Origin: a virus
Reading direction: 5' to 3' (one strand)
Length of the DNA stretch: 31,388 nucleotides
Virus record (IMG/VR): IMGVR_UViG_3300020165_000092
Location: 1-31,388 of that record
Position numbers and translations under genes: made by a program. Shown piece after piece: positions 3-28,200 of the stretch (its first letter is position 1; the number at the start of each line of letters is the position of its first letter). Under the pieces are notes generated by a model. That model was not told where the DNA came from. It did no database searches and saw only the letters and a list, made by a program, of their open reading frames with translations.

Positions 3-1709
3 GGTATGTGTTACCTTAAAAACAGACGATCTGGTTTTTCTTTTATGTCATCAGCTGAAACAGTTAACCAAGCTACAATATCAAGTGATGCTAGGTTTGG
101 TATATTATCTAAAACAGGTGCTGATGCTAAGAAAATGTTTACTGACAAAGTTGTACCTATATCGATTAATTATCCTTTCTTTTTTAGTCCTATTCAAGAC
201 GGTATGGATAGGCCAAAATCCGAGCTTGCATATAGAGTTCCAGCTTCTAAGTTCACTAGAAAGAAGATTACAACAAACGAAAAGCTAGAGGATTTAGAAG
301 GATTAGATACAACTATAGACTGGAAAAATACAGGTGACAATAGCTATGACGGTGAAAAATTAAAGCTTTTAGTGCATGATGAAAGTGGTAAGTGGGAAAG
401 ACCCGATAATATATTAAATAACTGGAGAGTTACAAAAACATGTTTACGATTAGGTAGTAGAATTATAGGTAAATGTATGATGGGCTCAACATCAAACTCT
501 TTAGACAAAGGTGGGGAAAACTTTAAAAAATTATACAACGCATCAGACGTTACTAAGCGAAACAGAAATGGACAGACAGCGTCTGGGTTATATTCTCTTT
601 TTATCCCAATGGAGTGGAACTACGAAGGATTTATTGATGAGCACGGAAGCCCAGTCTTTAATACTCCAGACTATGATGTCTTTGACCCCCATGGAGAGTT
701 AATAGACATAGGAGTAATAGACAGTTGGCAAAACGAAGCTGACGGTTTAAAAGGAGATCAAGACGCGTTAAACGAATTTTACAGACAGTTTCCAAGAACT
801 ACTGAGCATGCGTTTAGAGACGAGACTAAAAACAGTATATTTAACTTAGTCAAACTATATGAACAAATAGATTACAACGAAGAAATGTCTAGAACACTAG
901 GTATTACTAAAGGTAATTTTCAATGGGTTAACGGTGTTAAGGATTCAACAGTAATATTTTATCCAGATCCTAAAGGTAGGTTTAAAATAAGCTGGACACC
1001 ACCTCAGCAACTACAAAATAAAGTTGTAATTAAAAATGGTGTTAAATGGCCTGGTAACGAGCATATGGGTGCTTTTGGCTGTGATAGTTATGATATATCA
1101 GGAACTGTAGATGGTGTAGGTTCTAAAGGTGCATTGCACGGGCTTACAAAGTTTAGCATGGAAGACGCACCAGCTAATACATTTTTCTTAGAGTATCTAG
1201 CTAGACCACAAACCGCAGAGATATTCTTTGAGGACGTTCTAATGGCATTAGTATTTTACGGGATGCCTTTACTTGCAGAAAACAATAAACCTCGCCTATT
1301 GTACTATTTACGAAGACGTGGTTATAGAGGCTTTAGCATGAACAGGCCTGATAAAATATGGAACAAATTATCTGTAGCAGAAAAAGAAGTTGGTGGTATA
1401 CCAAACTCAAGTGAAGATATAAAGCAGGCTCACGCAGCTGCAATTGAAATGTATATACAAGACCACGTAGGGATAAATCGCGAGGGTCAATTTGGTAACT
1501 GTTATTTTAATGAATTACTAAACGACTGGGCTAAATTTGATATAAACAAAAGAACAAAGCACGATGCATCTATTAGTTCTGGCTTAGCTATAATGGCTAA
1601 CAATAGACATTTGTATAGACCAAATGCTCCTATACAAAAACCAAAGTTAAACTTAAGTATTGCTAAATACACAAACAAAGGCAGTACATCTAAATTAATT
1701 AAAAAATAA
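3..1709 (+). CDS. Terminase large subunit (TerL), 5' end cut off by window edge
   Basis: This is the packaging motor: an ATPase that drives DNA into the prohead joined to an RNase H-fold nuclease that cuts the concatemer. The reading frame is open from base 3, so the gene begins before the window; the first Met in frame (base 6) is probably internal. Counting from that Met, a deviant P-loop (NRRSGFSFM, 6-14) is followed by a Walker B (LLVHDES, D125/E126) and a motif III (MMGSTSN, about 158-164). The nuclease part has D360 in GCDSYD, E409 in IFFEDVL and D520 in KHDASISSG, so all three acidic metal ligands appear intact. It ends 2 bases before the portal gene, the usual TerL-portal pairing. The ATPase and nuclease motifs are seen directly; the role is established for the family. 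The portion lying upstream of the P-loop is missing. Confidence 0.9.
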   Translation, partial: GMCYLKNRRSGFSFMSSAETVNQATISSDARFGILSKTGADAKKMFTDKVVPISINYPFFFSPIQDGMDRPKSELAYRVPASKFTRKKITTNEKLEDLEGLDTTIDWKNTGDNSYDGEKLKLLVHDESGKWERPDNILNNWRVTKTCLRLGSRIIGKCMMGSTSNSLDKGGENFKKLYNASDVTKRNRNGQTASGLYSLFIPMEWNYEGFIDEHGSPVFNTPDYDVFDPHGELIDIGVIDSWQNEADGLKGDQDALNEFYRQFPRTTEHAFRDETKNSIFNLVKLYEQIDYNEEMSRTLGITKGNFQWVNGVKDSTVIFYPDPKGRFKISWTPPQQLQNKVVIKNGVKWPGNEHMGAFGCDSYDISGTVDGVGSKGALHGLTKFSMEDAPANTFFLEYLARPQTAEIFFEDVLMALVFYGMPLLAENNKPRLLYYLRRRGYRGFSMNRPDKIWNKLSVAEKEVGGIPNSSEDIKQAHAAAIEMYIQDHVGINREGQFGNCYFNELLNDWAKFDINKRTKHDASISSGLAIMANNRHLYRPNAPIQKPKLNLSIAKYTNKGSTSKLIKK

Positions 1710-8496: not shown

Positions 8497-10029
8497 ATGC
8501 CAGATTATTCAAATAGAATTCAAAAAGATTATTACGAAGGAAACAACTACGGAGATTATCAATTTACTTCTTTAGATGATATTGTAAATACATTTTTAGT
8601 TGTTTATGTTGGAGAGCAAAAAATTATTAATAAAGCAAATAGAACAGATGTTGCTTTCCACGCTCAAAGAGCTATGCAAGAGTTGTCGTTTGATACTTTT
8701 AAATCTGTTAAATCTCAAGAAATAGTTTTACCACCATCACTTCAGATGGTATTACCTCATGATTATATAAACTACACAAATATTTCTTGGTCAGACAGTT
8801 CTGGCATACAGCACACGTTATACCCCACAAGTAAAACTTCAAACCCTTTTAAAATAAAACAAGATGTAGATGGTAACTATGACTTTTCAAGTTCTAACAA
8901 CACTATTTCTGATTTTAAAAACAATGATTTCTCAACAGCTTTATCAAAAGTAAACGACTGGACCGCAACTCTTTCAAGAAAGAATGTGGTTGGTAACGGT
9001 CCAACAATTCAACCAAACCTTGTAACAACACAAGATGTGTTTAACGCTGTAAATGGCAAACTAACAGCAACAATACATAAAGAAGGTGATACTTCTACTA
9101 CTCCAAACTTTGGTAGACATTATAGTTGCTGGCAAGCAGTAGACGTTACTGGTATTAACGAAGTAAATTTATCAGGTTTAGGTGTTGCGCCAGCAGATAT
9201 AGCGGGTGCTGCAGGCGCTACAATAAGATTAGGTATTAGTTCAACACCAGGTGATGGTAAAACAAATCCAAATCAAGGTAGTCTTAGTGGTCAAACTTCT
9301 GGTGCAGCACTGAAAGGTCCTAATTTTATACCATATACTGCTACTGCTGATAATTTAGCTTATTTAGAGTGGGTTGGTGGTACAACATCAGACAGTGCAA
9401 CTAAAAACTTAGAAAGTGTAAATGTAAGTAACTACGACCAAATTTTTGTTTTAATAACAATGTTTGTACCGGGTGATCTTAGTAACATGGTTAACGCTAC
9501 TAATGTAACTTTAACTTTAGACGATGTTGATTTAACTTTTGATGGTGTTTACAATACTTTACAAGAAGACGGTGAGTCTACTACTTGGACTAACTTTAAA
9601 TCAACTAACACATCAGAAAACAATAATCATGAATATGACACAGACAATTATGATTTAATAATTGGTAAAAGATACGGGTTAGATCCTCAGCATAGCCAAG
9701 TAAATGGTTCTTTTTATATAGATAATTTAAAAGGTTTAATAAACTTTAGCTCTAACATTTCAGGAAAAACTGTAATCTTAAAATATATAAGCGATAGTTT
9801 AGGTACAGACAGTGAGATGCAAGTACATAAGTTTGCTCAAGAAGCAATTTATAAACATATAATGTATGCTATTTTATCTACTAAAGCAAACGTACCTGAG
9901 TATGTTGTTAGAAGATATAAACAAGAAAAGTTTGCAGCAACTAGGCAAGCTAAATTAAGGTTATCAAACATTAAGCTAGAAGAAATAACACAGATACTTA
10001 GAGGTAAGTCTAAGTGGATAAAACACTAA
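8497..10029 (+). CDS. Tail connector/ring protein (T7 gp11-like position) with inserted beta domain
   Basis: This probably forms the ring between portal and nozzle. The N-terminal part (1-135: AFHAQRAMQELSFDTFKSV, then LPPSLQMVLPHDYINYTNIS and LYPTSKTSNPFKIK) and the C-terminal part (about 375-510: VHKFAQEAIYKHIMYAILST, VPEYVVRRYKQEKFAATRQA, LEEITQILRGKSKWIKH) look like one domain family that I recall as contiguous in marine podoviruses. Between them, at about 138-350, lies a Gly/Thr/Asn/Val-rich stretch that reads as a beta-sandwich (YSCWQAVDVTGINEVNLSG, YDQIFVLITMFVPG, VTLTLDDVDLTFDG). This is the pattern of a carbohydrate-binding or decoration module inserted into a core protein. The start is ATG one triplet after the preceding TAA. 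The core role is fairly likely; the insertion's role is inferred. Confidence 0.7.
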   Translation: MPDYSNRIQKDYYEGNNYGDYQFTSLDDIVNTFLVVYVGEQKIINKANRTDVAFHAQRAMQELSFDTFKSVKSQEIVLPPSLQMVLPHDYINYTNISWSDSSGIQHTLYPTSKTSNPFKIKQDVDGNYDFSSSNNTISDFKNNDFSTALSKVNDWTATLSRKNVVGNGPTIQPNLVTTQDVFNAVNGKLTATIHKEGDTSTTPNFGRHYSCWQAVDVTGINEVNLSGLGVAPADIAGAAGATIRLGISSTPGDGKTNPNQGSLSGQTSGAALKGPNFIPYTATADNLAYLEWVGGTTSDSATKNLESVNVSNYDQIFVLITMFVPGDLSNMVNATNVTLTLDDVDLTFDGVYNTLQEDGESTTWTNFKSTNTSENNNHEYDTDNYDLIIGKRYGLDPQHSQVNGSFYIDNLKGLINFSSNISGKTVILKYISDSLGTDSEMQVHKFAQEAIYKHIMYAILSTKANVPEYVVRRYKQEKFAATRQAKLRLSNIKLEEITQILRGKSKWIKH

Positions 10030-10032
10030 TAT

Positions 10033-13000
10033 ATGCCAGAAATTAAAAACACTTTCACTCAAGGTAAAATGAACCAAGACCTTGATGAAAGAATTGTTCC
10101 TAATGGACAGTACATAGATGCAATGAATATTAAGGTAACGTCGTCAGACGATGCTAGCGTTGGTGTTGTTCAGAATATATTAGGAAACAAAAGAGTAGAA
10201 AATTATGTGCCAGCCGGCTATGTGTGTATAGCAACTATTGCAGATGAAAAAACTAATAACATATATTGGTTTGTTACTAACGAATTTACACACTGTATAT
10301 TACAATACAATTTAGAAGAAAACTTAACTAAATTTGTTTTAGTAGATAAAAATAATGACACTTTAAAATTTACTCAAAATATTATTACAGGTATAAATAT
10401 TATTGATGACTTATTGTTTTGGACAGATAATTACAGTGAACCTAAAAAAATAAATATAAATAATTGTATACAAGGTACAGATCAAAGCTTTAATGATTTA
10501 GACAGTACACCTCACACTAAGCTAGTTGTTAATGGGGTTGTTCTAGTTGATAATATTAAAGAAAAGCATATTACTGTTGTTAAAAAAAGCCCTAAACACC
10601 CACCTACAATAACAATAAACAAACCTACCGATCCGAACACACCAAAGTTGTTCGAACAAATTTTTCCTAGATTTTCTTTTAGATATAAGTATGAAGACGG
10701 GGAGTATTCCTCTTTTGGTCCTTTTACTCAAGTAGTATTTAATCCTGTATATGTTGCTGACAAGTATGGTAGAGAAGACGCTTATTCTACTAAAGACTCT
10801 CATAATTTAGCAATGGTAAATCAAATAAAATCTATTGAAATATCTAACTTTATTTCTTCTAACACACCAAAAGACGTTAAGCAAGTTGAAATACTTTACA
10901 AGGAAGATGGGTCTACTGTAGTTTTTTCTATAAAAACAATTGATTATGATGATATTGAATGGTCTAACAATACTTACACGCTAGAGTCAGAAACTGTTTT
11001 TGCAGCAGTACCTTCAAATCAATTTTTAAGACCTTGGGATAATGTTCCTAAAAAAGCTTTAGCACAAGAAATAACTGGTAATAGAATTGTTTATGCAAAT
11101 TATACACAAGGGTATGATTTATTTGGGTTTGGTAATGTTAAAGTAGATAATAAAATTAATGCTAGCTTTGACTTAAGACAAAACAACTTAACTTTTGATG
11201 ATGGTGGTTTGCCATCTTTAAAAACACAAAGAAATTATCAAGTAGGTTTTGTTTGGGGTGATAAGTACGGTAGAGAAACACCTGTATTTACTTCTGAAGA
11301 AGGTGGTGTTAACATACCTTGGTACGATGTTAACTTAGGGTATTTAGCTAGTCAAAGTTTATTTTTAAAAACAAGCCTTGCTACTTTTATACCTACTTGG
11401 GCTGACTATTATAAAGTTTATGTAAAAGAAACATCTGGAGATTATTATAATCTACTTATGGAAAAAGCATATCCACAATCGCATATGAATGTTTTTGATT
11501 TTGAAGAAGACCGCGTTTGGCTTGCCTTTCCATCTGCAGATAGAAATAAAGTTTCAGAAGATGATTATTTAATTATTAAAAAACAACTTACTGGTGATCA
11601 TAGTCAAATACTTTTAGAAAATAAATTTAAAATATTAGATATACAAAACGAAGCTCCTGATGCTATAAAGTTTGAATACACATCGCTTGGTAAAGCAACA
11701 CAACAAAGTGATGGTGGTGGAGGTGGTTATTTAAGTTCTAGTTTGTTTCCAAGCACTGAGTTTAGGATTGACCAAACAGTAGATATGGTTTACGTTGAAA
11801 AAAATGAGTGGTTAAACACTTTAGGTGGTGCATCTTTATCTCCAGACAATGATAATGATAATCTACATGTTAAAGATTTATATATTTATTGGGCAAGCGA
11901 TGGTACTGAGTCAGAAAGATATAAAGTGGTTGGTATTAATGTTTTAAGTACTACTTATAGGCTTAAACTACAAAAACCTATTAAAATACACGATGCACAA
12001 TTAGCTGATATTGGCGGTGTAGAAAATGACCAAACAACTGTTTTAAAAGCTGATTTACAGTTTTTTATTGATAGAAAAGATGAAAAAGATACTGATGAGT
12101 TTTCTGGTAAGTTTTTTGTTCAAATAGTTTATAAGCCACCAACAATGCCAGAACAAGACTTGGGTGTTAATTCTCCAAGAAAAATTACCAACCAAATTCA
12201 ATCAAACTGGTTGTATGACGTTATTGCTACAGACAGTTTGGATGCTAACGGTATTATAAATGTTGGTACTGACAGCGCTCCTCCAGATGAAACAACTTTG
12301 GAAGTAAATGCATTAAGTCCAACAAATACGGAAGAGTTGTGGGGTACTTTAGCTGCTGCTATGAGCACAAGCGAAAGAGGGTTTTTTATTGATAATATGT
12401 ATATGGTTGCTGGGCAGCCTAGCGATACATTTAGCGCAAAGCTTTCTGGAAAAACCTGGATTGGTATGTATGAGGGCCTTGCTAGTCCAACACCTAGGTG
12501 GGAAATTATTGATTCGTCTGGTACTTATGGCTGGACTGATTCAAATATTGCTAGTCCTTTACCAGGCAACCATTTTCCACCACTTGACCTATTATCATAT
12601 AATCCAAGACCTTCAAGTTTTTATGGTGGCAATAGAGTTTTAGATGTTACTCACGCAATGAATGGTTTAGAAGGGTTTTTAACAACTGAAGGTCAACACA
12701 CAGGAAATACAATTGATAATTTAGGGTCTATTGACGGTTACAGAAGGTGGAGAGGCGAGTCAAACTTTTTGTTTCCTTTAGCTGGAAAAGCCGACGATAC
12801 TTACCAGCCTTTTGATGTTAGTATACAAGCGCCAAGCCATGGTGATCAACCAAACACGGAAGGCAGGTATTTTATACATTTATCTTTTTTAGCGCCAGGT
12901 GTAGATTTACACGATGGTGTTTGGACGTTATTAAATAGCGCAGCAGAGCTAAAAGGCGTTAATAGTGTTGGTAACCATATGCAAGCAATATGGGGCGGCG

Positions 13001-16000
13001 GTATTTTTACTAACGGTGTAGATATTCTTGAGATGGAAGGTAATTATAGTACTGACGGGTTGTTAACTCCTTTACTAGGAACACCTGGCCCTGGCGTTGG
13101 CTATGGCTACGATTTAGGACCAGCAAACATATATAGAGTTAAACACGAAAACCAGTGGAACCCTGCGTATGGTGGCACAACTGATGAAAATAAAAAAATA
13201 CAAGAATTTATTGATAATATTGTAAAAGGCGCAGAGTTTCATTTTTCATCTGATACAAACAAAACAAGATTTAAAATAATAGGTGATAAAAAAGTAAAAA
13301 GAATATATAACCACACACCTTGGATAGCACAATACAAGTGGAAAGGTGTAAATTCAACAAATCCAACTATTGATAACGGTGATTTTGAATTATGCGATAA
13401 TAGTGTTGACGAGGCTGCTAGTAAGTGGCTTACAAATACTTCAGACGATGATTTGTTTGAAAAAACGGGAAACACGGATTCACTTCAAAATAAAATTACT
13501 GATTTTGGAAAAGCTAATAATAGAAGAGTTGTTTATATATTTGAAGTAGATACAAACCCTTTAGATGTTGCTGATGTAAATACTCTTTTAACAGATGCTG
13601 ATGGCTTTGATTCTAACAACTCATTAGATATTGTTTTTACTTCAAGTAGCCCTAACGTTTTACTAAAAGATTTAATTAAAGGCGCTGCAATATGGGAGAC
13701 AGAAGCTAAGCCAGGTGAAAATTTAGATCTTTATTATGAGGCTAGCCAAGCAATACCATTATACTTAACAAACGAAACAAACGAGCTTTTTGCACCTATA
13801 GGTTCAAAAGTAGAAATACTACTTGACGAAGCTAGAAATGGTAAAGTTCAAATTAATTCAGATGTATTTATAGAATCTTGGGATAACGCTGAGGTAACAG
13901 TAACGGGTGGCGGTGATGGTAGTGATTTTGGCTTTAATGTTAAAAATGCAGCTTTAGAAGACATAGACTATACCAGTGCACAAATAAGATTTTTTAGACC
14001 AAACGGTAGTTACACTACAACTCGACTAACTGGTATTCCACAACCGCAAACCACAGATTTTGTAGCTATATTTAATTTAGACCCAACTTTAGATGCTGCT
14101 ATGGAACAAGGTTTAAGTTACTCTAATTGTTATTCTTTTGGTAATGGTATAGAGTCAAATAGAGTAAGAGATGATTTTAATGCGCCTAGTATTTCTAAAG
14201 GTGTTAAAGCTTCGTTAGTTTTAGATCAAGAATACAAAGAAGAAAATAGAAAAAATGGTTTAATATACTCTGGTATTTATAATTCTACTTCAGGTGTAAA
14301 CAATTTGAATCAGTTTATAATGGCTGAAAAAATTACTAAAGATTTAAACCCAACATATGGTAGTATACAAAAATTATTTCAAAGAAGAATAAGTTTAGTT
14401 GCTTTTTGTGAAGACAGAACTATAAGTATAACTTCTAATAAAGATGCTTTATTTAACGCTGACGGCAACTCACAGTTAGTATCTACAAACGCTGTTTTAG
14501 GTGATGCAACGCCTTTTGTTGGTGATTATGGTATATCTAAAAATCCAGAATCTTTTGCAAAAGAAAGTTATAGAGCGTATTTTGCTGACAAACAAAGAGG
14601 TGCAGTTCTTAGATTATCAATGGACGGTATAACACCTATTTCAGACGCTGGTATGGATGATTATTTTAGAGATAATTTAAAAATAGCAGGTGAAGCCATA
14701 GGTAGCTACGACACTCATAGTAGAAATTACAACTTAACATTAAAATACGCTAGACAAGGTAGTAATATTATAGCTAACAGCTTTATTAGCCTTGGCACAG
14801 GTTCTACAAGCAGTTCTTTTTCTAACACAATAGAAAATTATAATATAAATGCATTTACACAATATCAACCTGCAACTTTAACTTTGTCAAATTGGTTTAT
14901 AAATGGAAATATAGACGTAGGAACTACAATAACAAATTATAACGAAATACCTGCTGGAAGTTTAATTCCAGAAACTTTTACTACTACTACAACTGTTACA
15001 ACAGCAAGAAGTTTTATTTTAAATAACTTTACAAATGGAGTTGTATACAATCAAGGATTTGAAACTTCATCTAATTGGGGCGCTTTTTCTAATTCAAGCG
15101 ATCCAGTAGGAACTTGGAGCTCTTCAGGTGGTTTTCCTAGAGATCCTTTTAGTGATAAATCTGGAAACACAAATGTGGAAAGACAATACCAATTAAAAGT
15201 TACTTACGATGCTAGGTTTGGGTCTAGCACAGCAATACCATTTCCAGAAGGTCCACCTTTTAGTAATTCACAAACTGGTAATAGTGTAAATGAAGACGGT
15301 GATATATGGTGGTACAATGGAACTCATGACGATAGTTTCGGGTTTTTTGACGATGAGTGGCCAGCAACTCAAACAACAGAGCCTGGTGATGGAGACATTG
15401 GAGATGGTGAAACTAACACAGAAGGTGTAGTTTTAAGTAAAACTAGTGAAGAATTACTTTTTCCAGGGGAACACAAGCCTTATGACAACAACGGGACACA
15501 GGGCCCTAATAACACTACAGTACAGAGTAACGTGTTAAGCTTTCAAGATGAAAATGGAGCTACGCCGTTTGCTTCTGCAACAGACACCGCGGTGTTTAAC
15601 GGTGAAGAGGTACAAGTAAAAGTTGGATTTAAAAATCCAGTAGAAGAAGGTGGTATGCAAAATGGCATTAACCCAAGAAGAATACAAATTACATTGTATA
15701 ATGAATGGAACTCTTTTGATAGAACTGCAATTGATCAGTCTAAAATATTTAACGAAGCAACTTCTACATACGATGCTAGTGATCCTGATACTACTGAATT
15801 TAGAACTTATTCCCACACACCTGCTACAGGTACTTATGAAAACGAAGGTATTAGTGGTTGGGACACAGATTTAACATCAACTCATCGATACGCTATTAAT
15901 CCTAGCGTTGAGTTTGATAATATTAATGATACAACTGATGCTTTGCATACCCATGAAGTTTATTTTAAGTTTAGTGATGGTACTACTGATGATAAAATAT

Positions 16001-18366
16001 TAATAGATAATTTACAAGTTGGTATTAAAGTATTAGATGATAACAACGTTAACCCACACGGTATAATTACTTTTATTCAAGTAGTTAAAAGATTTGCTCT
16101 TCAACAACCAGAAGTATTCACAACGTCTAGCACATCTGATAACAACGCAATGCCAGCCACCGCAATATCAGCTTTTGCAATAGTAAATCACGATGTGTCA
16201 AACCATTCGTTATTGGGACCTGGTAACTTATTTAAGCCTCCTTTTCTTTCAAGAGCTACAGACGTAACTTCTGGTTACGGTCCTAACTTTGCGGCTTTAA
16301 CCACAACAACGCTTACTCAATTCAAACCAGACGGAACAACGCTAACAGGTAACACTGCAACATATCAATTTCCATCAAGTGGTAATGTAAGTAACGGTAC
16401 TGTTGTTTATGACGACGGTTCTAGTGGTGTTGGTATGTTTCCAAATACATCTACTTTTGGAGGAGGCGCAAACTCTTCTGGAGGTATAAATCAAAGTGGT
16501 GGTATAGCGCCGGTAGAAAATACAGATGATGTTTTTGTTTTCTTAAACAGTAGAACTGACGACACTATTATGAATCAAGTTGCAAACGTCAACCTTAATA
16601 CAGATGATTGGTATTTTATTGATATACGTTACAACGGTACTCCTTCAGTGCCAAATGATAAAATAACTATTGATTCTACACAAAGCGCTGATGGAGTTGA
16701 GTTTGAAGAAGTAAGCACAGATATTTATGGTACAAGTGAAGATGTTTTAAGGGCTGTATTTCAAATAGATTCTTCTCAAGACACAAACAATAGGCTTAGA
16801 ATTTTAATACCTAAAGATGTTAGTATAGAAATTGAAGGTATTCACGCACAACAAATAAACGCAACTTACACTGGAGGTACTATAGACGATTGGTCTTTTA
16901 ACCCTGATCCAAACCCGCCACAACATTCTTTTGATGTTGCAACTATATATGGTAGTTCTAATGGTATAGAGTTTGATGCAAGCAGTGGTTCTCAAAGATT
17001 TATTTTTCAGCAGCTAAACACAATACCAGTACAAAATACTGGTGGTTATAAATTTAGCTTTACACTTAGTAACTACGCTTCAGGATATTTACATTTTTAT
17101 GTTATTGGAAAAGATGCTTCTGGCGCTGATCAAGGTATAGTATTTAAAAAGTCTGACGCTGAAATTTATCAAGACGGTGATTACTATGTTGATTTTAATT
17201 TTGATGGTGGTGCTTATGATTTGTTTTTTGATGATGGCTCAGGTCCTGTTTCACTTGGTACAAGTAATCAATATTTAAATGAATACACTGAAAAAGTAAC
17301 ATTTTTAAGTAATAGTAATGATGGTTTTACAGGTTGTGTAACAAATATTAGACTTGTAGATCAAACAATTGTTTTTAGTGGAGGTTCAGTAGATAACTTT
17401 ACAATTGAAGGTTTTGACCCTACGTTAGACGACTTTATAACTTTTGAAGACCTAGGTAGTGGTGAAGGTCAAGTTTTATTTAACAACGCACCTATAACAG
17501 GGCCGCTTGATGACGTTAGAATACAACAGGGAATAAGCGTTAATATACTTGAAGATGACACGTATAAGCTTAAGTTTGAACATGATATTGCAGCAGGTGG
17601 TTCTATAGGAGTTTATTATTATAGTTCAAATGGTAACAAAGGTTTTAAAGTTAACAGCATAAGTGGAACTGGGACTTACAACATAGTACATACCATGAAT
17701 GAAGACTGGACTGTTGGTCATGAAATTGATACTTTGGTTTTCTTTGTAGATACTGATGGTACTACTGGTAGCATAGATAATATAGTTTTTAACCAAGAAT
17801 TTTTAATACAAGACGATTTTCCATCAACAATCAGTTATAGTGAAAAAGTTAGAGGCTGGGTTAGTAAAAAATCTTTTATACCAGAACAAGGTAATAGCAT
17901 AGCTGGTGAGTATTTTACTGTTAAAAACGGTGGCTTGTTTTTGCATAACGTAGAAATAATAGATATTACTAGTGGTCATGATACTAATAGAAATACTTTT
18001 TATGGTAACCATGTTGATTCTACTATTACCGCTGTTTTAAACGAAAACCCTTCTTCTGTAAAAATATTTAATACTTTAAACTACGAAGGTAGCCAGTCTA
18101 ATGTAATTGCAGGTGACGCAGCTGTGCCAGTTGGTGGAAACACTTATAATACGTTAGACACATATAATTTAATTGAAGACAAAGGCTGGAGTGTAGAATA
18201 TTTAAAAACAGACAAACAAGAAGGTACTTTAAACGAATTTATTGAAAAAGAAGGTAAATGGTTTAATTATATCAAAGGACTATCTACAGACATAACAGAT
18301 ATAAAAACCTCTGATTTAAGCTTTCAAGGACTAGGAATTGTTAAAAAAATTGATCTTAACGTATAA
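10033..18366 (+). CDS. Giant tail nozzle/tube-like protein (T7 gp12 position) with multiple beta-sandwich domains, 2777 aa
   Basis: Probable nozzle/tail-tube protein that also carries the adhesin load. T7 gp12 is about 794 residues, so this is 3.5 times longer. The N-terminus (NTFTQGKMNQDLDERIVPNG, 6-25; VVQNILGNKR) and the YWTD-like blades at 60-150 (NNIYWFV, DDLLFWTDNYSEPKKI) suggest a beta-propeller. A second propeller-like block lies at about 1427-1590 (LVAFCEDRTISITSNKDALF, YRAYFADKQRGAVLRLSMDG). About 1000 residues follow that look like tandem jelly rolls: one near 1659 (YNQGFETSSNWG), one at about 2165-2276, one at about 2281-2455 (ending GGSVDNFTIEG) and one at about 2460-2590 (ending GSIDNIVF), resembling carbohydrate-binding modules. 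A separate C-terminal block (2597-2777, SYSEKVRGWVSKKSFIPEQG, TDKQEGTLNEFIEKEGKWFN) closes the protein. A Gly-rich linker lies near 558. There is no signal peptide or membrane segment. The tail role is likely; glycan binding is inferred. Confidence 0.7.
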   Translation: MPEIKNTFTQGKMNQDLDERIVPNGQYIDAMNIKVTSSDDASVGVVQNILGNKRVENYVPAGYVCIATIADEKTNNIYWFVTNEFTHCILQYNLEENLTKFVLVDKNNDTLKFTQNIITGINIIDDLLFWTDNYSEPKKININNCIQGTDQSFNDLDSTPHTKLVVNGVVLVDNIKEKHITVVKKSPKHPPTITINKPTDPNTPKLFEQIFPRFSFRYKYEDGEYSSFGPFTQVVFNPVYVADKYGREDAYSTKDSHNLAMVNQIKSIEISNFISSNTPKDVKQVEILYKEDGSTVVFSIKTIDYDDIEWSNNTYTLESETVFAAVPSNQFLRPWDNVPKKALAQEITGNRIVYANYTQGYDLFGFGNVKVDNKINASFDLRQNNLTFDDGGLPSLKTQRNYQVGFVWGDKYGRETPVFTSEEGGVNIPWYDVNLGYLASQSLFLKTSLATFIPTWADYYKVYVKETSGDYYNLLMEKAYPQSHMNVFDFEEDRVWLAFPSADRNKVSEDDYLIIKKQLTGDHSQILLENKFKILDIQNEAPDAIKFEYTSLGKATQQSDGGGGGYLSSSLFPSTEFRIDQTVDMVYVEKNEWLNTLGGASLSPDNDNDNLHVKDLYIYWASDGTESERYKVVGINVLSTTYRLKLQKPIKIHDAQLADIGGVENDQTTVLKADLQFFIDRKDEKDTDEFSGKFFVQIVYKPPTMPEQDLGVNSPRKITNQIQSNWLYDVIATDSLDANGIINVGTDSAPPDETTLEVNALSPTNTEELWGTLAAAMSTSERGFFIDNMYMVAGQPSDTFSAKLSGKTWIGMYEGLASPTPRWEIIDSSGTYGWTDSNIASPLPGNHFPPLDLLSYNPRPSSFYGGNRVLDVTHAMNGLEGFLTTEGQHTGNTIDNLGSIDGYRRWRGESNFLFPLAGKADDTYQPFDVSIQAPSHGDQPNTEGRYFIHLSFLAPGVDLHDGVWTLLNSAAELKGVNSVGNHMQAIWGGGIFTNGVDILEMEGNYSTDGLLTPLLGTPGPGVGYGYDLGPANIYRVKHENQWNPAYGGTTDENKKIQEFIDNIVKGAEFHFSSDTNKTRFKIIGDKKVKRIYNHTPWIAQYKWKGVNSTNPTIDNGDFELCDNSVDEAASKWLTNTSDDDLFEKTGNTDSLQNKITDFGKANNRRVVYIFEVDTNPLDVADVNTLLTDADGFDSNNSLDIVFTSSSPNVLLKDLIKGAAIWETEAKPGENLDLYYEASQAIPLYLTNETNELFAPIGSKVEILLDEARNGKVQINSDVFIESWDNAEVTVTGGGDGSDFGFNVKNAALEDIDYTSAQIRFFRPNGSYTTTRLTGIPQPQTTDFVAIFNLDPTLDAAMEQGLSYSNCYSFGNGIESNRVRDDFNAPSISKGVKASLVLDQEYKEENRKNGLIYSGIYNSTSGVNNLNQFIMAEKITKDLNPTYGSIQKLFQRRISLVAFCEDRTISITSNKDALFNADGNSQLVSTNAVLGDATPFVGDYGISKNPESFAKESYRAYFADKQRGAVLRLSMDGITPISDAGMDDYFRDNLKIAGEAIGSYDTHSRNYNLTLKYARQGSNIIANSFISLGTGSTSSSFSNTIENYNINAFTQYQPATLTLSNWFINGNIDVGTTITNYNEIPAGSLIPETFTTTTTVTTARSFILNNFTNGVVYNQGFETSSNWGAFSNSSDPVGTWSSSGGFPRDPFSDKSGNTNVERQYQLKVTYDARFGSSTAIPFPEGPPFSNSQTGNSVNEDGDIWWYNGTHDDSFGFFDDEWPATQTTEPGDGDIGDGETNTEGVVLSKTSEELLFPGEHKPYDNNGTQGPNNTTVQSNVLSFQDENGATPFASATDTAVFNGEEVQVKVGFKNPVEEGGMQNGINPRRIQITLYNEWNSFDRTAIDQSKIFNEATSTYDASDPDTTEFRTYSHTPATGTYENEGISGWDTDLTSTHRYAINPSVEFDNINDTTDALHTHEVYFKFSDGTTDDKILIDNLQVGIKVLDDNNVNPHGIITFIQVVKRFALQQPEVFTTSSTSDNNAMPATAISAFAIVNHDVSNHSLLGPGNLFKPPFLSRATDVTSGYGPNFAALTTTTLTQFKPDGTTLTGNTATYQFPSSGNVSNGTVVYDDGSSGVGMFPNTSTFGGGANSSGGINQSGGIAPVENTDDVFVFLNSRTDDTIMNQVANVNLNTDDWYFIDIRYNGTPSVPNDKITIDSTQSADGVEFEEVSTDIYGTSEDVLRAVFQIDSSQDTNNRLRILIPKDVSIEIEGIHAQQINATYTGGTIDDWSFNPDPNPPQHSFDVATIYGSSNGIEFDASSGSQRFIFQQLNTIPVQNTGGYKFSFTLSNYASGYLHFYVIGKDASGADQGIVFKKSDAEIYQDGDYYVDFNFDGGAYDLFFDDGSGPVSLGTSNQYLNEYTEKVTFLSNSNDGFTGCVTNIRLVDQTIVFSGGSVDNFTIEGFDPTLDDFITFEDLGSGEGQVLFNNAPITGPLDDVRIQQGISVNILEDDTYKLKFEHDIAAGGSIGVYYYSSNGNKGFKVNSISGTGTYNIVHTMNEDWTVGHEIDTLVFFVDTDGTTGSIDNIVFNQEFLIQDDFPSTISYSEKVRGWVSKKSFIPEQGNSIAGEYFTVKNGGLFLHNVEIIDITSGHDTNRNTFYGNHVDSTITAVLNENPSSVKIFNTLNYEGSQSNVIAGDAAVPVGGNTYNTLDTYNLIEDKGWSVEYLKTDKQEGTLNEFIEKEGKWFNYIKGLSTDITDIKTSDLSFQGLGIVKKIDLNV

Positions 18367-18367
18367 T

Positions 18368-19639
18368 ATGAATACAAAAACAATTAACTCTGTACAAATA
18401 AATCAAAGCAATATGTCTGCCGCTGCACAAACAAGGTTGTTAAAAGTAGTTGGCGAAGCGGGCGCTAGCTTTATTGCTAATGTTGTTAAAATAAATGGAA
18501 CTGGAAAAGAAAGCTATTATAATTTTAAAACAAATGCTTTTACAGATGCTTTTGTTGCTGCAAATGCTTTAAAAACAACTATGGGTTCTAGTATTTTTTC
18601 AACACCTATAAACTTTCCGGCAGACGCTAGTGGTGATGTGTATAGCATAATTGTAATACCTTCAAAAAATACAGTACTAAAAAATAACAATGGAGTTATA
18701 AACAAAAAAATAACTCAAGTTGGACAAACAACACTTGTTTTAGAGGTTGATGAAGGTAGCGAAATTAATTCTGCTTTTCAATCAAAATACACTGCTCACC
18801 CGCCAGATACAGCCGTTTCTAGTGTAGGATCTACTGTGCAAGTTAGGTCTACAAATGTTCCTATTGCTTGGACTTTAACAAACGCGGCTAGTGACACTCA
18901 TGGCTTTGGCCTTATGCTTCCTAATAGACCAGCTTCTAACCAATTTATAATACCAGATTCATATTGGTTCACCCAACAACTTCAAATTGTAAATGGAGCT
19001 ATAACTAGCTCTACAACACTAGTCTTAGACAGCGTTGTTAATTTAATTGTTGGTATGACACTATCACAGACATCTGCTGGTAGTATATCTGGCGCACCTG
19101 TAATAACAGCTATAAGCGGTAATACTATCACACTTTCTGTTGCTCAATCTCTTGGCGATGGCGTTACTCTTGGTTTTAGAGCTTATGGTCCAACTTTAAT
19201 AAGCAAAGTGTTTGGCTTAAATATAGTTTTTAATAACTTTATTGCAATAGGAACTCAATTAACAAAAACAGTTAGAACAGATACAACTTTCCCAGCGTCT
19301 GATGGTGCTGTAACTCTTAACTTAAACGGTACATATGGCGTTGCTGGGGCTAGCTTAGTTAGAATAACTGGCTTTAACATAAATGAAAATGCAAACAATA
19401 ACTTAGTGACAGGTGTTACTGCAAGCGCTACAGCTGGTGGTGTTAGTGTTACTTTTGCAGGGGCTGCAGACGATGTTGTTTCAGCTGTTGTACCTGTTGG
19501 AACTAAGATTTACGTAAACGGTTCTCATCAAGAAATAAAAATAACTGGTACTGTAGTTGTAAACAAGTACCCAGAAACAAACGCTAAACTAAAGCTTGAT
19601 TTAACTAAATTTATAACACACGGAGCAGCAACAGCATAA
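18368..19639 (+). CDS. Beta-rich virion structural protein, 423 aa (tail or capsid accessory)
   Basis: Unidentified structural protein. It is rich in Thr, Val, Asn and Ala and almost all beta in character. Residues about 205-275 hold a compact repeat-like module (VVNLIVGMTLSQTSAG, then ITAISGNTITLS), a 'VGM...ISGNTITLS' pattern that I recall from fibre and decoration proteins of marine phages. The C-terminal half (290-423) has further Gly/Ala/Val-rich strands (VTLNLNGTYGVAGASLVRIT, VSVTFAGAADDVVSAVVPVG). An earlier in-frame ATG at 18338 would overlap the upstream gene by 29 bases and add MLKKLILTYN. I chose 18368 because it lies 1 base after that gene's stop and has the same TAATATG context as other genes here. 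Its position after the nozzle gene suggests a tail fibre, tip or decoration role. Confidence 0.75.
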   Translation: MNTKTINSVQINQSNMSAAAQTRLLKVVGEAGASFIANVVKINGTGKESYYNFKTNAFTDAFVAANALKTTMGSSIFSTPINFPADASGDVYSIIVIPSKNTVLKNNNGVINKKITQVGQTTLVLEVDEGSEINSAFQSKYTAHPPDTAVSSVGSTVQVRSTNVPIAWTLTNAASDTHGFGLMLPNRPASNQFIIPDSYWFTQQLQIVNGAITSSTTLVLDSVVNLIVGMTLSQTSAGSISGAPVITAISGNTITLSVAQSLGDGVTLGFRAYGPTLISKVFGLNIVFNNFIAIGTQLTKTVRTDTTFPASDGAVTLNLNGTYGVAGASLVRITGFNINENANNNLVTGVTASATAGGVSVTFAGAADDVVSAVVPVGTKIYVNGSHQEIKITGTVVVNKYPETNAKLKLDLTKFITHGAATA

Positions 19640-19642
19640 AAC

Positions 19643-19969
19643 ATGGATAAAATAACATTAGGAAATAACATACAAAGCAATTCTTTACAAATTGGAGACG
19701 ATGCATATTACGTAACTTTAACTGATAGTTATGGTAATAGTGATCCTAAGCCTCTTGGTAAAATAAAAACTATTAAACGTGACTATATAGAGGTAGATCC
19801 TGGCGATGGTGACTTGCAAGAAGGTGATTTTATAATGTTTTCTAAAAATAAAGAAGTGAATAATAATAGTTTGCTTGGTTATTATGCCGAGGTAAAACTA
19901 ACAAATAATTCAACTGATAAAATAGAGTTATTTGCCTTAGGTTCTGAAGTAACAGAAAGTAGTAAATAA
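19643..19969 (+). CDS. Small conserved virion-module protein, 108 aa
   Basis: No function is recognised. The chain is a small beta-rich protein: LQIGDDAYYVTLTDSYGN (15-32), LGKIKTIKRDYIEVDPGDGD (38-57), EGDFIMFSKNKEVNNNSLLG (60-79) and YYAEVKLTNNSTDKIELFAL. This suggests a small barrel of five or six strands. The C-terminal SEVTESSK tail is probably flexible. Similar short proteins, with the VNNNSLLGYYAEV and NNSTDKIELFA patterns, are in my memory widespread next to tail genes of marine phages, but I cannot verify that here. It follows the 423-residue gene in the same frame, separated by one triplet after the stop, so the two are likely co-translated. A possible role is capsid decoration or a tail plug. 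Confidence 0.75.
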   Translation: MDKITLGNNIQSNSLQIGDDAYYVTLTDSYGNSDPKPLGKIKTIKRDYIEVDPGDGDLQEGDFIMFSKNKEVNNNSLLGYYAEVKLTNNSTDKIELFALGSEVTESSK

Positions 19970-22209: not shown

Positions 22210-25200
22210 ATGACTGAAACTTATTATCTTAATGGCAAAGCATACACTTTTGAAACGCAAGAGGAGTTAGACGCGTGGCTATTAGAAAATCCTGGTGCAA
22301 GCACCGTGGATAATAGTGTTGCAGAGCAAGATGCTACTTTTGTTAACCCAGCTGTAATTCCAGATCAAATTGGTAATCTTGTTTCTGACGAGCCTCTTAA
22401 TATTGAAATGAGCGAGCAGGAGCAATTAGAATTTGATACAAAAAGAGATGAGCAACGTCAAAAACAAATAGAAGGTCAAAAAAATTATTTTAGAGAAAAA
22501 GCAATAAAAGAAAAAACAGGTTTGTCACCTTCTCAATACCCTCAAATACAAGTAGGTAGTGAAGATCAAACTTACATGGGGCAAACAACAAGTGTTCCAA
22601 TAATGGAAACTGTTGATCTTGATAAAATGGAAGAAATAGCAGCTAACGTAACCGCTGAGTATAGAGATGAGCTTGGCCTTTTTATGTCTGATGAGTTTGA
22701 AACTTTAAAAAATATGGCTGAAGACCCTATGACTTATGATGTTGAACTAAACACTATTCATGATCGTGTTTTTAGCGCTTTGCAAGAAAAATATCCAGGA
22801 CTAAATAAAAGAGAGTTTATGGATATATCTGGTGGTATGAAAAACAATACTATATTTCAAACTACCTTAAATAATATTACCGCAAAAAGCTTAGAGTTAG
22901 ACGCTGCAGAAAATTTAGTTGGAGCTGTAACTTTAGATGATGGTATTTTAACTGGTATTAACAAAAAAATAGAATTAAATTTTAGCACAAAAGAACTTGC
23001 TAAAAGAGATATTATTGCCAATATAAGAAACGCAAATAGAGAGCTAAACGAGTTAATATTTTCTGAAAATCCTGATGAATCTAGGATTAAAGAATTAAAA
23101 TCTAAAGTAAGAAAATATCAAGATGATATAAAAAAGTTAGCAACTACAGAGCGATACATGCCAGTCGGGTTTGGTGGTTTTGGTGGTACTACTCCAGGAA
23201 CTACTGGTCCATTATTTAAAGTTGACATTGTTGATGAAAAGCTTGCTAGTTCTTATATGGATAACGAAACCACAAAGTATCGCCAAAGAAAAATAGACGA
23301 AGCAAAAAAGAACATGAAAGGCAACGTGGGTACACAAGTTGCTAATGAGCATGCTAAAAACCCTAGGCTAACAGATTTTCAAGCGCATGATTTATTGTAC
23401 AAATCAAAAGCTTATAATTTGCAACAACTTTGGGTTTCTGGAAATAAAGAAACAATTAATGTAAAGTTAAATAGTGCTGGTAGCTCACCAGAACTATATC
23501 AAAAATTACTTGAAGGTGGTTATGTAAGTAAAGAACAAAGAAAAAACCCTGGAAGCAAGCTTAGTATAGATGTGCCTATAAAAGCTTTGTTTGACATGGG
23601 TTATGATGGTAGAGATTTTGAAGGCGCTGATAATTTTTTTAGATTTACTGATGTAAGTGATGAAGATAAAAATAAACTATTAAATTACGAATCAGCAGTA
23701 TATAGAAATTTAGGTGAGCTTGAATCTCTTTATGAAATAACTTATATAAACAATGATCCTGAGACTTTTGATAGAGGTGGTGGTTTTGGAGAGTTTGCAA
23801 GATCAACTATTTCGGCTGTAGCAACACACTTTACAGATATTGCCCCACAAGAAGCTGATAAAATTGCTTCTATGGGACCTGGTTCTACAGACGCAATAAT
23901 GCTTCAAGAGTTTGAAAAGCTTGGTAATACTTACAACGAAACTTATAAAGATGCTATAGCTGAAGGTGTTGTTGATGAGTTAGGTTTTACAGCGGAACAA
24001 ATAAAAGCTATAGATAAAACTTTTGGAGAAGAGGTTGGTGAAGGTTTTGGCCATTTTGTACCTATGCTTATGGAGCTTGGTGTTATATCAGCTGCTACTG
24101 GTTTTACTATGACAGCAACGGGTTTTGCTAGAACATTAGCTACAATGAGAAATGCTGGTGGTTGGAAAAAAGCTCAATACCACGCTATAATGACAATGGT
24201 TGAAGAAGGTAAAATGTTTACAGCTGGGTTTGATCCAGGTGCGGGTGCTGGTTTTTATGCTGGTGGTCAATTAACAGCAGGTGTTAGCCCGTTTAAAAAA
24301 CGATTTAAATGGCTAGATCCTTTATTTCAAAAAGTAATAAAAGGTGGTCCTGTAGGTGTTGGTTCTGTTCAAATAGCAACTGTCTTGGAAGCTGGAATAC
24401 AGGACTTATTAGGTAATTCAGATTTTCAAGCAACAATAGATACTTATTATGGTGATTTAACTTTTAAAGATCTTGTTGTTGAAAGTCTAGTTTTTAGTAT
24501 AGCTGGCGCAACGCACGTTAAGAGAACTGACTTTATGTCTACTAGACGTAAATACGAAGCTATAACTGAAATTGACAATAAGATGAACGACTTGATGAAA
24601 AGCGAGTCTGGAGAAAAAGGGCAAAAAGGATTTGAAAGAGGTATGGCTACTGTTTTCCGTTTAGATGCAGAAGGAAATCTTGTTCGTATTAGACCTGAAG
24701 GTTATGAAATGATGAGCACTAAAGACCAAGCTAAATGGGAAGCTTTAAACGAAGCTAAAAGAAGTTTAGAGGCTATGACAAAATACGAAACAACTGCCAT
24801 AGAGCTTGACCCTAACAACAAAGACTTTGAGTCTAATGTTGATAAAATGTATACTCAACCGATAAATGAAACGTTAAAATCTGTTAATAAAGAGTTTGAA
24901 GGTTTTAGAGTTGAGTTTACTGAAAACGCTAAAGACCCTAGATTTCCTGAAGGGGCAGACGGCGCTGCTTTTTTACCTGGCAAAGGTAAAGATCCTGGTG
25001 TTGCTTTGTTTTTAAAAAGTAAGTTTACTCCAGAAAAACTAACGCACGAGGTTTTAGGTCACGCCGGTCTTGAATCTTATTTTAATCGTAATCCACAGGC
25101 AGAAGTTAAATTTCAAAAAAATATATCTAAACTATTTGAAAAGTTTGATTTTCAAGCTTACGATGGAACACCACTTGGTGAGTTTATAAGTAAAAATTAT

Positions 25201-28200
25201 AGTAAAGAAATTGGAGCTGGAAATAACATAAAACCAAGGGAGTTTTTTGCTTACATGTTTGAACTACTAACTGATCCTAAAATATATTATCAAAAAGTAG
25301 CTCCATCATTTTTTAAAGAAGCAAAGCAAGAAATGCTATCTGTAATTGAAGAGTCAACAGGTATGAAACCTAAAATTAGAAATGTAAAACAATTTGTAGA
25401 GTTTATTGGTAGACTATCTATGGACGCTAGAAGAGGTTTAAACATACAAACTAAAGTAGCTAGACTTGCTGATTTAGAAGATTTAGATTTTCTTGGTATA
25501 GAATTTGTTGTAAACAAAGAAAAGAATACAGAAAAAGCTTTAAACGAAGGTTATAGCTCTAAAAACATAAACAGACAAAAAGAAGTGTTTTTAGATAATA
25601 AAAAAGAATCAGAAACAATAGACGCTGAAGGTAAAAAACAAGAAACACCTCTTTACACTATTGATAAACATGTTTTTGATCCAAATACTGGAAATATCAA
25701 GTATGAAAGTTTAGAAAAGTTTATGCGTACTAACGATTATGCTCAAGTTTTTGAAAAAATATTAGGTCCTCAATCAATATTTAATTCTCTTTTAAGAAAA
25801 AGTACAGATACTAAAGGTAGAAAAATAGCTCAAGGTGTACCCGAAAGATTCTTGCCAGATTTTGTAGAAAAAGTAAAAGAAAAATTATTTCCAAGACTTA
25901 CTAAAAACTTTAATCCAAAAAAAGGTGGTGGTAGCTTATATGGTTATATTACTGAAATAGCAATACCTTTTGAAGCTGCTAGAGTAAGAGAAGAGTATGT
26001 TAAAGGTAAAACAGATATGCTTTCTTTAGATAAAAAAAGTGAAGGTGGTAAAACAGCTATGATAGAGCCAGAAGCGCCTAAAAGTGATTTACTTGAAAGA
26101 CTTGAAACAGAAATAATAATACCAACTAAAACACAAAAAGAAATAGAAAAAGGTCCAGAGCAATATGTGGACATGATTAAAAACAGTTTTAAAACTGAAA
26201 AAGAAAAAGAAAAATACAATAAAGATATAGATAAAGCTGTTGTAGAAGCAGATATAAATATAGATTTAGAAAAACTTACTTACAAAGATATTAAAAGCGA
26301 AGTTGGTGGTGTAGTTAAAATTACTAAAAAAGATAAACAAGGCAATTTAATAATAGATCAAAAGACAGGTGCACCTAAACTGTTTACTCCAACAAAAGAG
26401 GCTGATGCTATGCCAGCTGGAAGATTACCTAAAGTTTTAGAAATTGTATCAGAAAAATATGGTATACCTTTAAAAAGGATGTTAGCTAACCAAACATTAA
26501 ATGATAAGATGCGTAAAGCAGCTAGAACTCGTATATCACAAACAGTTAATAGTTGGAAAAAAGCTTTACCTGAAGGAGAAACAATTAGCGGTACAGCTAC
26601 AGGTGTTGGTAATACTTCTTGGAAGTTTTTGTATAATTTTGAAGGCGCAAGAGGAAGTTTTGCTGAAGGTAAAACAGCTGCTGGTAAAGAAGTTGTAAGT
26701 AAAAGAAAAGATATAACTACTCAAGAAATACTAGACGCTGTTGGTATTGACGCTAGTGGAAACTTTTTAGGTGGAACAAAATATGACTCAGCTATAAAAG
26801 AGTATATAAAGCTAGAAACGCAGTGGACAGCTGTTCAGTCAATGAGAAAAACCGGTGAGGGTAGATTTACAGAAGCTGCTTTAGCAGAAACTGGATCTGG
26901 TAGGTCTGAAGCTTTGGCTAGTAAAATGATAAAAGAGTTTAGCGAAACATTTGGATTAAGTGCTTCTAAAACTCAAGATATATTTATTAACTATGCTATA
27001 GGTAGTAAATACTTAGTAGATAAAAAGTACCAAACATTTTTAGACAGATTTAGTAAGCACGAATTTTTTACAGGGTTTGGTGGATCAGTATGGACATCTC
27101 TTGAGCAAAAAGGTTTAAAAGGTAAAGCTATACAGACTAAATTTATGGTTGAGTTTAATAACTATTGGGATAGTTACACTGGGCCTTTACCAGAAGGTGT
27201 TACAGCTAAAGATATTAAAGCTTTAAAGCCAAAAGCTTTTTACAGTGAAAGCAAGGGTAACGTATTTGTAGATCCTAAAAGATTAAGTAAGCATGTAGAT
27301 ATTTCAGTTAGGTTTGCTGAAATGCTACCTAAAGGTTTTGAGAAAAATTTAACGTTTTTTGATCAAGTAATTGGCCTGCATCAAAGAGTTACTATGGAGA
27401 AAGAAGGTCGACTTGCTAAATTCAAAGAAACAGTAGATAAAGATGGAAACGTTATAAATGAATTTAATGGCTTTATAATGGAAAATGATGGCACACCTGT
27501 TATCAATCAGCCGTATACAAAAGGCAGAGAAAGAGCGTTGCCAAACTTAGGTAAAAACGTTAGTGAAGTTTGGAAAGGCATAGAAATTAAATTTAAATCT
27601 GCATCAACTCAAGAGTCAGCGCAAAGAAAAATGGCTAAAGCTGGTAACAATATTGCTGAGCAATTAAAAATAGCTAGTGAAAACTTTTCTATACTAGACA
27701 ATAAAACAAAAGAAGATATATATTTTGCTATCCAATCTACAAAACAAGAGTTTATAGATGCTGGAAAAAATAAACAAGAAAAACTAGATAGAATAGAATG
27801 GATGTACAACGTTGCTAGAAGTAACACTAATTTACGCCTTGGTCTTAGACAAATGGTACCGGTTAAATATGTTTACTTTGCAAATAAAAAAATTGCCGGT
27901 GAAGCAATAAAACTAGAGCATTTAAAAGCTATGGTTACACAATCTATACAGTCGGCTAATCTAATAGCTTCAGGTACTTTTAAAACAAACGGTAAAAAAC
28001 AAATGGCAGACTTTATGGGTATAACTTCTGTTAAAAAAATTTTAGATATAGTTGACAAGGTTGGTGGTACTACTAATACGTCTGGACTGTTTAGAATGGC
28101 ACTGCTACACCCTAAAACTTTATCACAATTTAAATCTGTTGAAAGTGGTTTTAAAAGAACTTTGCTTGAAGACGTTATGATGAAATACAAAAAAGAAGTA

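Follow-up and report, generated by a model that had tools for sequence, protein, structure and literature searches.

The window, that is, the whole 31,388-base virus sequence analysed here, contains terminase, portal and virion genes. The genes and larger features considered are as follows.

8497..10029, + strand: ring-type tail protein of 510 aa, directly upstream of the muzzle gene, with its own insert of ~215 aa (about 8926-9564); phrog_13977; the elemoA (286 aa) and phi38:1 (283 aa) counterparts have no insert.
10033..18366, + strand: crAss-type muzzle (nozzle) protein of 2777 aa, ATG start; PF25729, phrog_14478, and hhalign alignment with PhiCrAss001 gp44.
14230..14748, + strand: conserved propeller block, residues 1400-1572, immediately before the insert; 74-92% identity to 7 relatives, aligning with gp44 1045-1168.
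14764..17826, + strand: lineage-specific insertion, residues ~1578-2598, in a propeller-blade hairpin; not present in elemoA, phi38:1 or the majority of short relatives; beta-sandwiches predicted by AlphaFold2.
17827..18363, + strand: muzzle C-terminal part, residues 2599-2777, with crAss_MUZ_C at 2652-2748; Pfam, BLASTP and gp44 alignment.
18368..19639, + strand: accessory ORF after the muzzle, 423 aa, ATG at 18368, typical of the clade.
19643..19969, + strand: 108-aa protein, a separate copy of a muzzle-ORF domain; phrog_18548 spans both, and phmmer matches lie inside muzzle ORFs.

ORF 10033-18366 encodes the tail-tip muzzle of a marine crAss-like podovirus. A reading made from the letters alone (the sequence-only reading) had taken this 2777-residue protein to be of nozzle type, which was borne out by crAss_MUZ_C (PF25729; 38.2 bits against a Pfam cut-off of 27), by phrog_14478 (E 6.8e-122) and by a profile match to gp44. 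Apart from crAss_MUZ_C, no Pfam family, enzyme families included, matched the ORF at E up to 1. For the profile comparison, the hhalign query was built from 19 muzzle sequences; these represent 16 phages, of which three have a split muzzle. Higher-confidence stretches were collinear and lay on both sides of the insert (gp44 1-73, 112-158, 282-321, 1045-1168, and 1199-1283); the full-length gp44 span is partly forced, as the run was probably in global mode. In local mode the match (Prob 95.6) was limited to gp44 1199-1280, and controls with reversed, shuffled and three other proteins stayed below 1%. The match needs the combined alignment, as six short relatives alone gave Prob 0.0 and eight long ones alone Prob 0.4. 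Window residues 541-1330 (crass fold and IG region) aligned with gp44 at low confidence. The counterpart of the IG2/crass domain (residues ~545-1340; 11665-14052) is longer than that of elemoA (~200 residues between aligned blocks) and moderately conserved. In elemoA, phi38:1 and Gundel_1, as in the window (8497-10029, then 10033-18366), the muzzle gene follows that of a ring protein, and most named relatives infect marine or brackish flavobacteria.

According to the accessible part of PMC10172136, gp44 of PhiCrAss001 forms a hexamer that acts as a gate at the end of the tail; it is made up of a domain joining it to the ring, a propeller of seven blades, a pair of Ig-like domains and the crass domain. 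Its gene also directly follows a ring protein gene, and its N-terminus, C-terminal domain and the propeller blocks flanking the insert align with the window protein; gp44 differs in being 1371 aa long and without the insert. The length variation described in that part of the source stems from insertions around IG2 and the crass domain, and not from the propeller loop. By analogy with the gp44 hexamer, six copies per virion are expected. Of the 6- or 12-fold display suggested from the letters, the former is thus the expected one, whereas twelve is unlikely for a hexameric muzzle. The ring proteins of PhiCrAss001 are dodecameric (PMC10172136, same part), and the ring-type protein of the window also has an insert.

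To define the insertion, BLASTP alignments with elemoA, elemoF and phi38:1 were examined. Alignment ended at ~1571-1578 and restarted at ~2587-2599, with 11, 11 and no intervening residues, respectively. In elemoA, window residues 1365-1578 and 2599-2773 are aligned around a gap of 11 residues (1225 to 1237); in phi38:1 the counterpart blocks abut (1075 to 1067). The corresponding breakpoint in gp44 lies near residue 1198, between ...VYFTYK and DHCLCYSEL.... The elemoA alignment agrees with the sequence-only reading that the ends and a block at ~1427-1590 are muzzle and propeller, and its added region of ~1600-2590 is almost exactly the insertion. Judged from these alignments, the ~1000 added residues are a single clean insertion in a late propeller-blade hairpin. 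Our own strand count would place it between strands two and three of the sixth blade. Such hairpins share a face with the inter-blade loops bearing the IG1 insertion, so the extra domains would lie on the cell side.

Identity of the window protein to seven relatives (alignment A1) was 74-92% in residues 1400-1572 and 49-79% in 2599-2777, compared with 20-36% in 1590-2150 and 23-49% in 2151-2596; the insert has changed far more rapidly than the sequence on either side of it. Within it, the outer domain, termed D4 below, is the best conserved part, and the most variable part is the following.

15040..15882, + strand: residues ~1670-1950, of which a part has no predicted fold (pLDDT below 50 at 1672-1795); within 1701-2000 the identity to 7 relatives is 13-35%.

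A tblastn search of the insert against 50,697 phage records (INPHARED) gave no matches at E 0.01.

Presence of the insert across relatives was followed in loci from two viral-contig scans, the second covering the best 80 of 532 relatives, together with named phages. In this set 92 loci had at least one flank and 79 had both; the length count left out the 13 loci without one flank, including the window's own copy. The distance between flanks was 915-1442 aa in 38 of the 79 loci, 100-900 in 8 and below 100 in 33, so that gain or loss among relatives, raised as a check at the outset, is evident in this set. Loci L070 and L071 had no obvious CBM-like sequence. In a quick tree of the flanks (one locus, L086, was dropped for its short flank) the long-insert rows clustered, with short rows nested within them. 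Short loci L022 and L023 fell among long rows on a branch marked 97*, L040 beside L008 and L039 on a branch marked 100*, and L068 among long rows with less support. Of the inner branches, 26 of 75 were open, and isolated phages sat on long branches with unsure placement; the starred branches require at least four changes of the long-insert label. Gain in one clade followed by losses in nested lineages would be the simplest reading of this tree. The naturally short loops in L022 and L040 show that a muzzle can do without the insert.

For structure prediction, residues 1560-2640 were modelled with AlphaFold2 from 39 sequences, giving a mean pLDDT of 68 and a pTM of 0.41, with separate, confident beta-sandwiches in the last half. 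Residues ~1672-1795 had pLDDT below 50 and no assigned fold. A model of the related locus L054 had a mean pLDDT of 64. The following bodies are predicted in the window.

15871..16374, + strand: beta domain D1, residues ~1947-2114; AlphaFold2 strands, moderate pLDDT.
16387..16884, + strand: beta-sandwich body D2, residues ~2119-2284; AlphaFold2, weak profile likeness to D3 and D4.
16885..17382, + strand: jelly-roll body D3, residues ~2285-2450, starting GGTIDDWSF; AlphaFold2, D3-D4 Prob 97, 4d0q Z 12.3.
17383..17820, + strand: jelly-roll body D4, residues ~2451-2596, starting GGSVDNFTIEG and ending GSIDNIVF; pLDDT mostly 70-95, CBM16 Z 12.7.

A continuous propeller or tube, named beforehand as the outcome that would count against added domains, was not seen in this model; it is ruled out by the separate beta-sandwiches and by the BLASTP break at ~1578-2598. 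The strands GGTIDDWSF, GGSVDNFTIEG and GSIDNIVF had all been read as similar domain ends. The last is an end strand, but the first two start bodies, and the matching end strands, from our own reading of the sequence and the model, are IEGIHAQQIN, VTNIRLVDQ and IDNIVFNQE. By profile comparison, 2285-2452 and 2450-2596 were clearly homologous (Prob 97, E 9e-11) and formed the only clear pair; 2119-2284 was weakly like D3 and D4 (Prob 34 and 28), and no likeness was found for earlier segments.

The top VIA structural match of the predicted model was CBM16 (2zey; Z 12.7, rmsd 2.7, 125 of 144 residues aligned), followed by CBM4, a hyaluronan-binding module (4d0q, Z 12.3), CBM61, and domains of phage K2-2 and Kp7 tailspikes or fibres. 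For CBM16, 4 and 61 (2zey, 4bj0 and 2xom), Z was 11.9-12.7, with rmsd 2.7-3.6 over 125-145 residues; the CBM rows for the L054 model had Z 10.7-10.9. Foldseek matches included CBM4, the surface glycan-binding protein B (SGBP-B) of Bacteroides and several toxins that contain domains of this kind. Stig cyclases share the CBM-like fold, so non-binding roles of it exist. None of the 40 members of alignment A5 belonged to a Pfam CBM family at E 0.1, and window residues 2150-2600 had no matches; stray Pfam matches among the 40 were HpiC1-like in two (best E 0.0012) and GalBD_like in one (E 0.0018). Searches of PDB sequences with the full protein (phmmer) and with profiles A5 and A1 gave no credible matches, and missed the gp44 structure likewise. 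The insert is thus predicted to fold as CBM4/16-like jelly rolls, by likeness of fold and without sequence membership in a CBM family.

The order in which these domains are assembled was then considered. Three short stretches at the front of the insert, termed caps, are candidate first strands.

14752..14802, + strand: cap 1, residues 1574-1590 (SNIIANSFISLGTG), taken as the first strand of D4, the last domain; VIA row spans in the window and L054 models.
14824..14868, + strand: cap 2, residues ~1598-1612, proposed first strand of D3; a single VIA row (4d0q, model 37-890), pLDDT 80-88 at model 41-60, and cap-motif repeats in relatives.
14890..14952, + strand: cap 3, residues ~1620-1640 (NWFINGNIDVG), a candidate for the first strand of an inner domain; with +42 it is the best non-self match that the cap-1 matrix has within the window protein.

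Cap 1 reads N-I-I-x-N-x-F-x-x-x-G, which we take to be the usual start of a CBM4-type domain. In 46 of 50 VIA rows coverage ran from model 15-20 to 1028-1038 (window 1574-1579 to 2587-2597), the matched domain being merely ~125-150 residues. With L054, whose insert is 583 aa, 43 of 50 rows covered model 14-20 to 587-599, and three matched the body without the cap. Strand pairing was read from these alignment ranges only, and pLDDT around cap 1 was 59-61 in the window model and mostly below 50 in that of L054. In 20 of 39 rows, the best other match of the cap-1 matrix across the insert was no more than 60 residues away from cap 1, against 1.8 rows expected and at most 6 in 200 shuffles, these rows being related and not independent; in the remaining 19 it lay elsewhere. 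Counted by hand, caps equalled bodies in number: one each in L092, two in a separate ORF of L068, and three in L039 and L008. In L008 a double stop and new ATG split the array mid-way, so that its three caps belong to the first chain and its three bodies to the second.

D3 and D4 have no first strand where a contiguous CBM has one. First strands thus appear to stand at the front of the insert, with headless bodies after them in reverse order, an arrangement supported by prediction together with motif statistics. The successive beta-sandwiches of the sequence-only reading are indeed separate in the model, but they are predicted to be nested and not simply tandem. A simple tandem array as the whole story was ruled out, with D3 and D4 headless and the fold matches beginning at cap 1.

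Surrounding genes were examined for related domains. The insert of the window's ring-type protein has a CBM-like look (DFS...DW...LTLDDVDL). In L072 the ring-type protein matches the D4 profile, and in L043 and L050 the ring-type ORF upstream of the muzzle contains a domain related to the accessory ORF. The 108-aa protein resembles a muzzle-ORF piece in elemoA, phi38:1, Gundel_1 and others; in the window's clade the 423-aa accessory ORF separates the muzzle from this piece. In L068, which has 11 residues at the insert site, D3/D4-like domains are joined to the 108-aa domain within one downstream ORF. All nine longer long-insert records carry the array once, in a muzzle-sized frame. In phi19:3 (L016:12010-17577) the muzzle is divided between two genes, again at the insert site, and its first chain has a cadherin/Ig-like domain at its C-terminal end (Big_9, E 2e-20).

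Several further observations were made. In L008:15698-18223 the C-terminal part holds two GCMDPLAxNFDPLATxDDGxC-type repeats beyond the muzzle C-terminus, a motif known from Bacteroidota surface proteins. The muzzle of MW202828 (L014:12001-18021) is split at the insert site, with a 183-aa ORF annotated as 'putative glycosidase' between the halves, and that of Panino (L013:11989-15902) consists of two ORFs broken elsewhere, near window residue 1451-1493, with a ~110-base gap. Window positions 22210-30894 encode a 2894-aa protein where crAss phages carry cargo proteins; nothing in PHROG matched it better than E 0.05, and nothing in Pfam at 0.01.

The reading that we favour, at a probability of roughly two in three, is that the hairpin-loop insert on the tail-tip muzzle forms nested CBM-like arms that bind surface glycans of the Bacteroidota host. 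Placement of putative adhesins in the tube protein, as first proposed from the letters, is well supported in architecture, and the insert domains would bind glycans; the insert probably helps the phage to grip its host. One late propeller-blade hairpin has been opened by ~1000 residues, and each new jelly roll would have entered the loop after strand 1 of the preceding one. Six arms would project from the propeller face bearing the Ig-like domains, presumably on the cell side, and could bind surface glycans or capsule. Glycan capture would hold the muzzle at the surface, to be followed by contact of the crass domain and a putatively triggered opening of the gate. Variation of the inner domains may tune host range, while outer domains and propeller stay constant.

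An alternative considered was a purely structural role, in which the insert serves as a cage or spacer, stabilising the muzzle or giving other tail proteins a docking site, and binds no receptor. The conservation of outer D4 within the insert would fit this, as would the clade's accessory ORF, which adjoins the muzzle and whose product might dock there. That ORF is nevertheless kept in the insert-less L022, L023, L040 and L068, and identities of 20-36% beside flanks of 74-92% are unexpected for a structural spacer; we regard such a role as unlikely. Lower still do we place binding of environmental polysaccharide (algal mucilage, particles) and not of the host, by which virions would stay near hosts. 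Flavobacteria live on algal polysaccharide, most named relatives infect marine or brackish members of that group, and the CBM-like fold would serve; however, the muzzle must touch the cell, and its place fits host contact better. That the core at about 1670-1950 is an enzyme, for example a depolymerase, with jelly rolls as substrate-binding helpers, is highly improbable: the fold matches do include GH101 enzymes as well as tailspikes that carry CBM-like domains, and the 'putative glycosidase' ORF lies between muzzle halves in MW202828, but that ORF has no Pfam match at 0.01, the window ORF has no Pfam enzyme family at E up to 1, L054 has no segments matching I1 and I2, and the inserts of L092 and L039 are shorter and without such a core.

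For host-binding nested arms, the closest analogue, as a comparison of how they may work, is the 'evolved Dit' of siphophages. Dit is a hub protein unrelated to the muzzle, and the evolved-Dit insert is much smaller. As reported in the accessible part of PMC10688798, carbohydrate-binding insertions in this structural tail-tip protein, patchy among relatives as here, aid adsorption and restored infection of polysaccharide-coated hosts; nested jelly rolls are unmentioned for Dit in that part. CBM16, 4 and 61 share the fold with the window insert and show no detectable sequence relation to it, and in the window the first strand lies hundreds of residues from its body. The BACON fold differs from that of the insert. 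The BACON-repeat proteins of crAssphage are likewise carbohydrate-binding-type domains near the tail that evolve fast, but form a separate tail-region protein and not the muzzle (PMC10136315, accessible part). Tail tubular proteins that bind a receptor provide a precedent (PMC7241545, accessible part). In the accessible parts of the literature on nested CBMs, CBMs on a nozzle or muzzle, and marine crAss-like muzzles, no such arrangement was found.

A fuller picture, which we hold to be evenly balanced, is of a Russian-doll array in which carbohydrate-binding-like jelly rolls occupy a single propeller hairpin of a hexameric muzzle, one domain after another having been inserted behind strand 1 of its predecessor. 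It would include a natural central cut in L008, where three first strands would complete three bodies in trans, and accessory domains that move among the ring protein, the muzzle and nearby ORFs; the gate at the tail tip would itself be the host-range module.

If the favoured reading is true, host recognition would fall to the very protein that controls the release of DNA and proteins, and recognition would be coupled to the opening of the gate. Nesting would be a simple way to lengthen a binding arm, one domain at each step, with the carrier protein undisturbed, and a natural series of arrays, from one domain upward, exists. It would also explain why a long region without assigned function in a large group of marine phages aligns so poorly.
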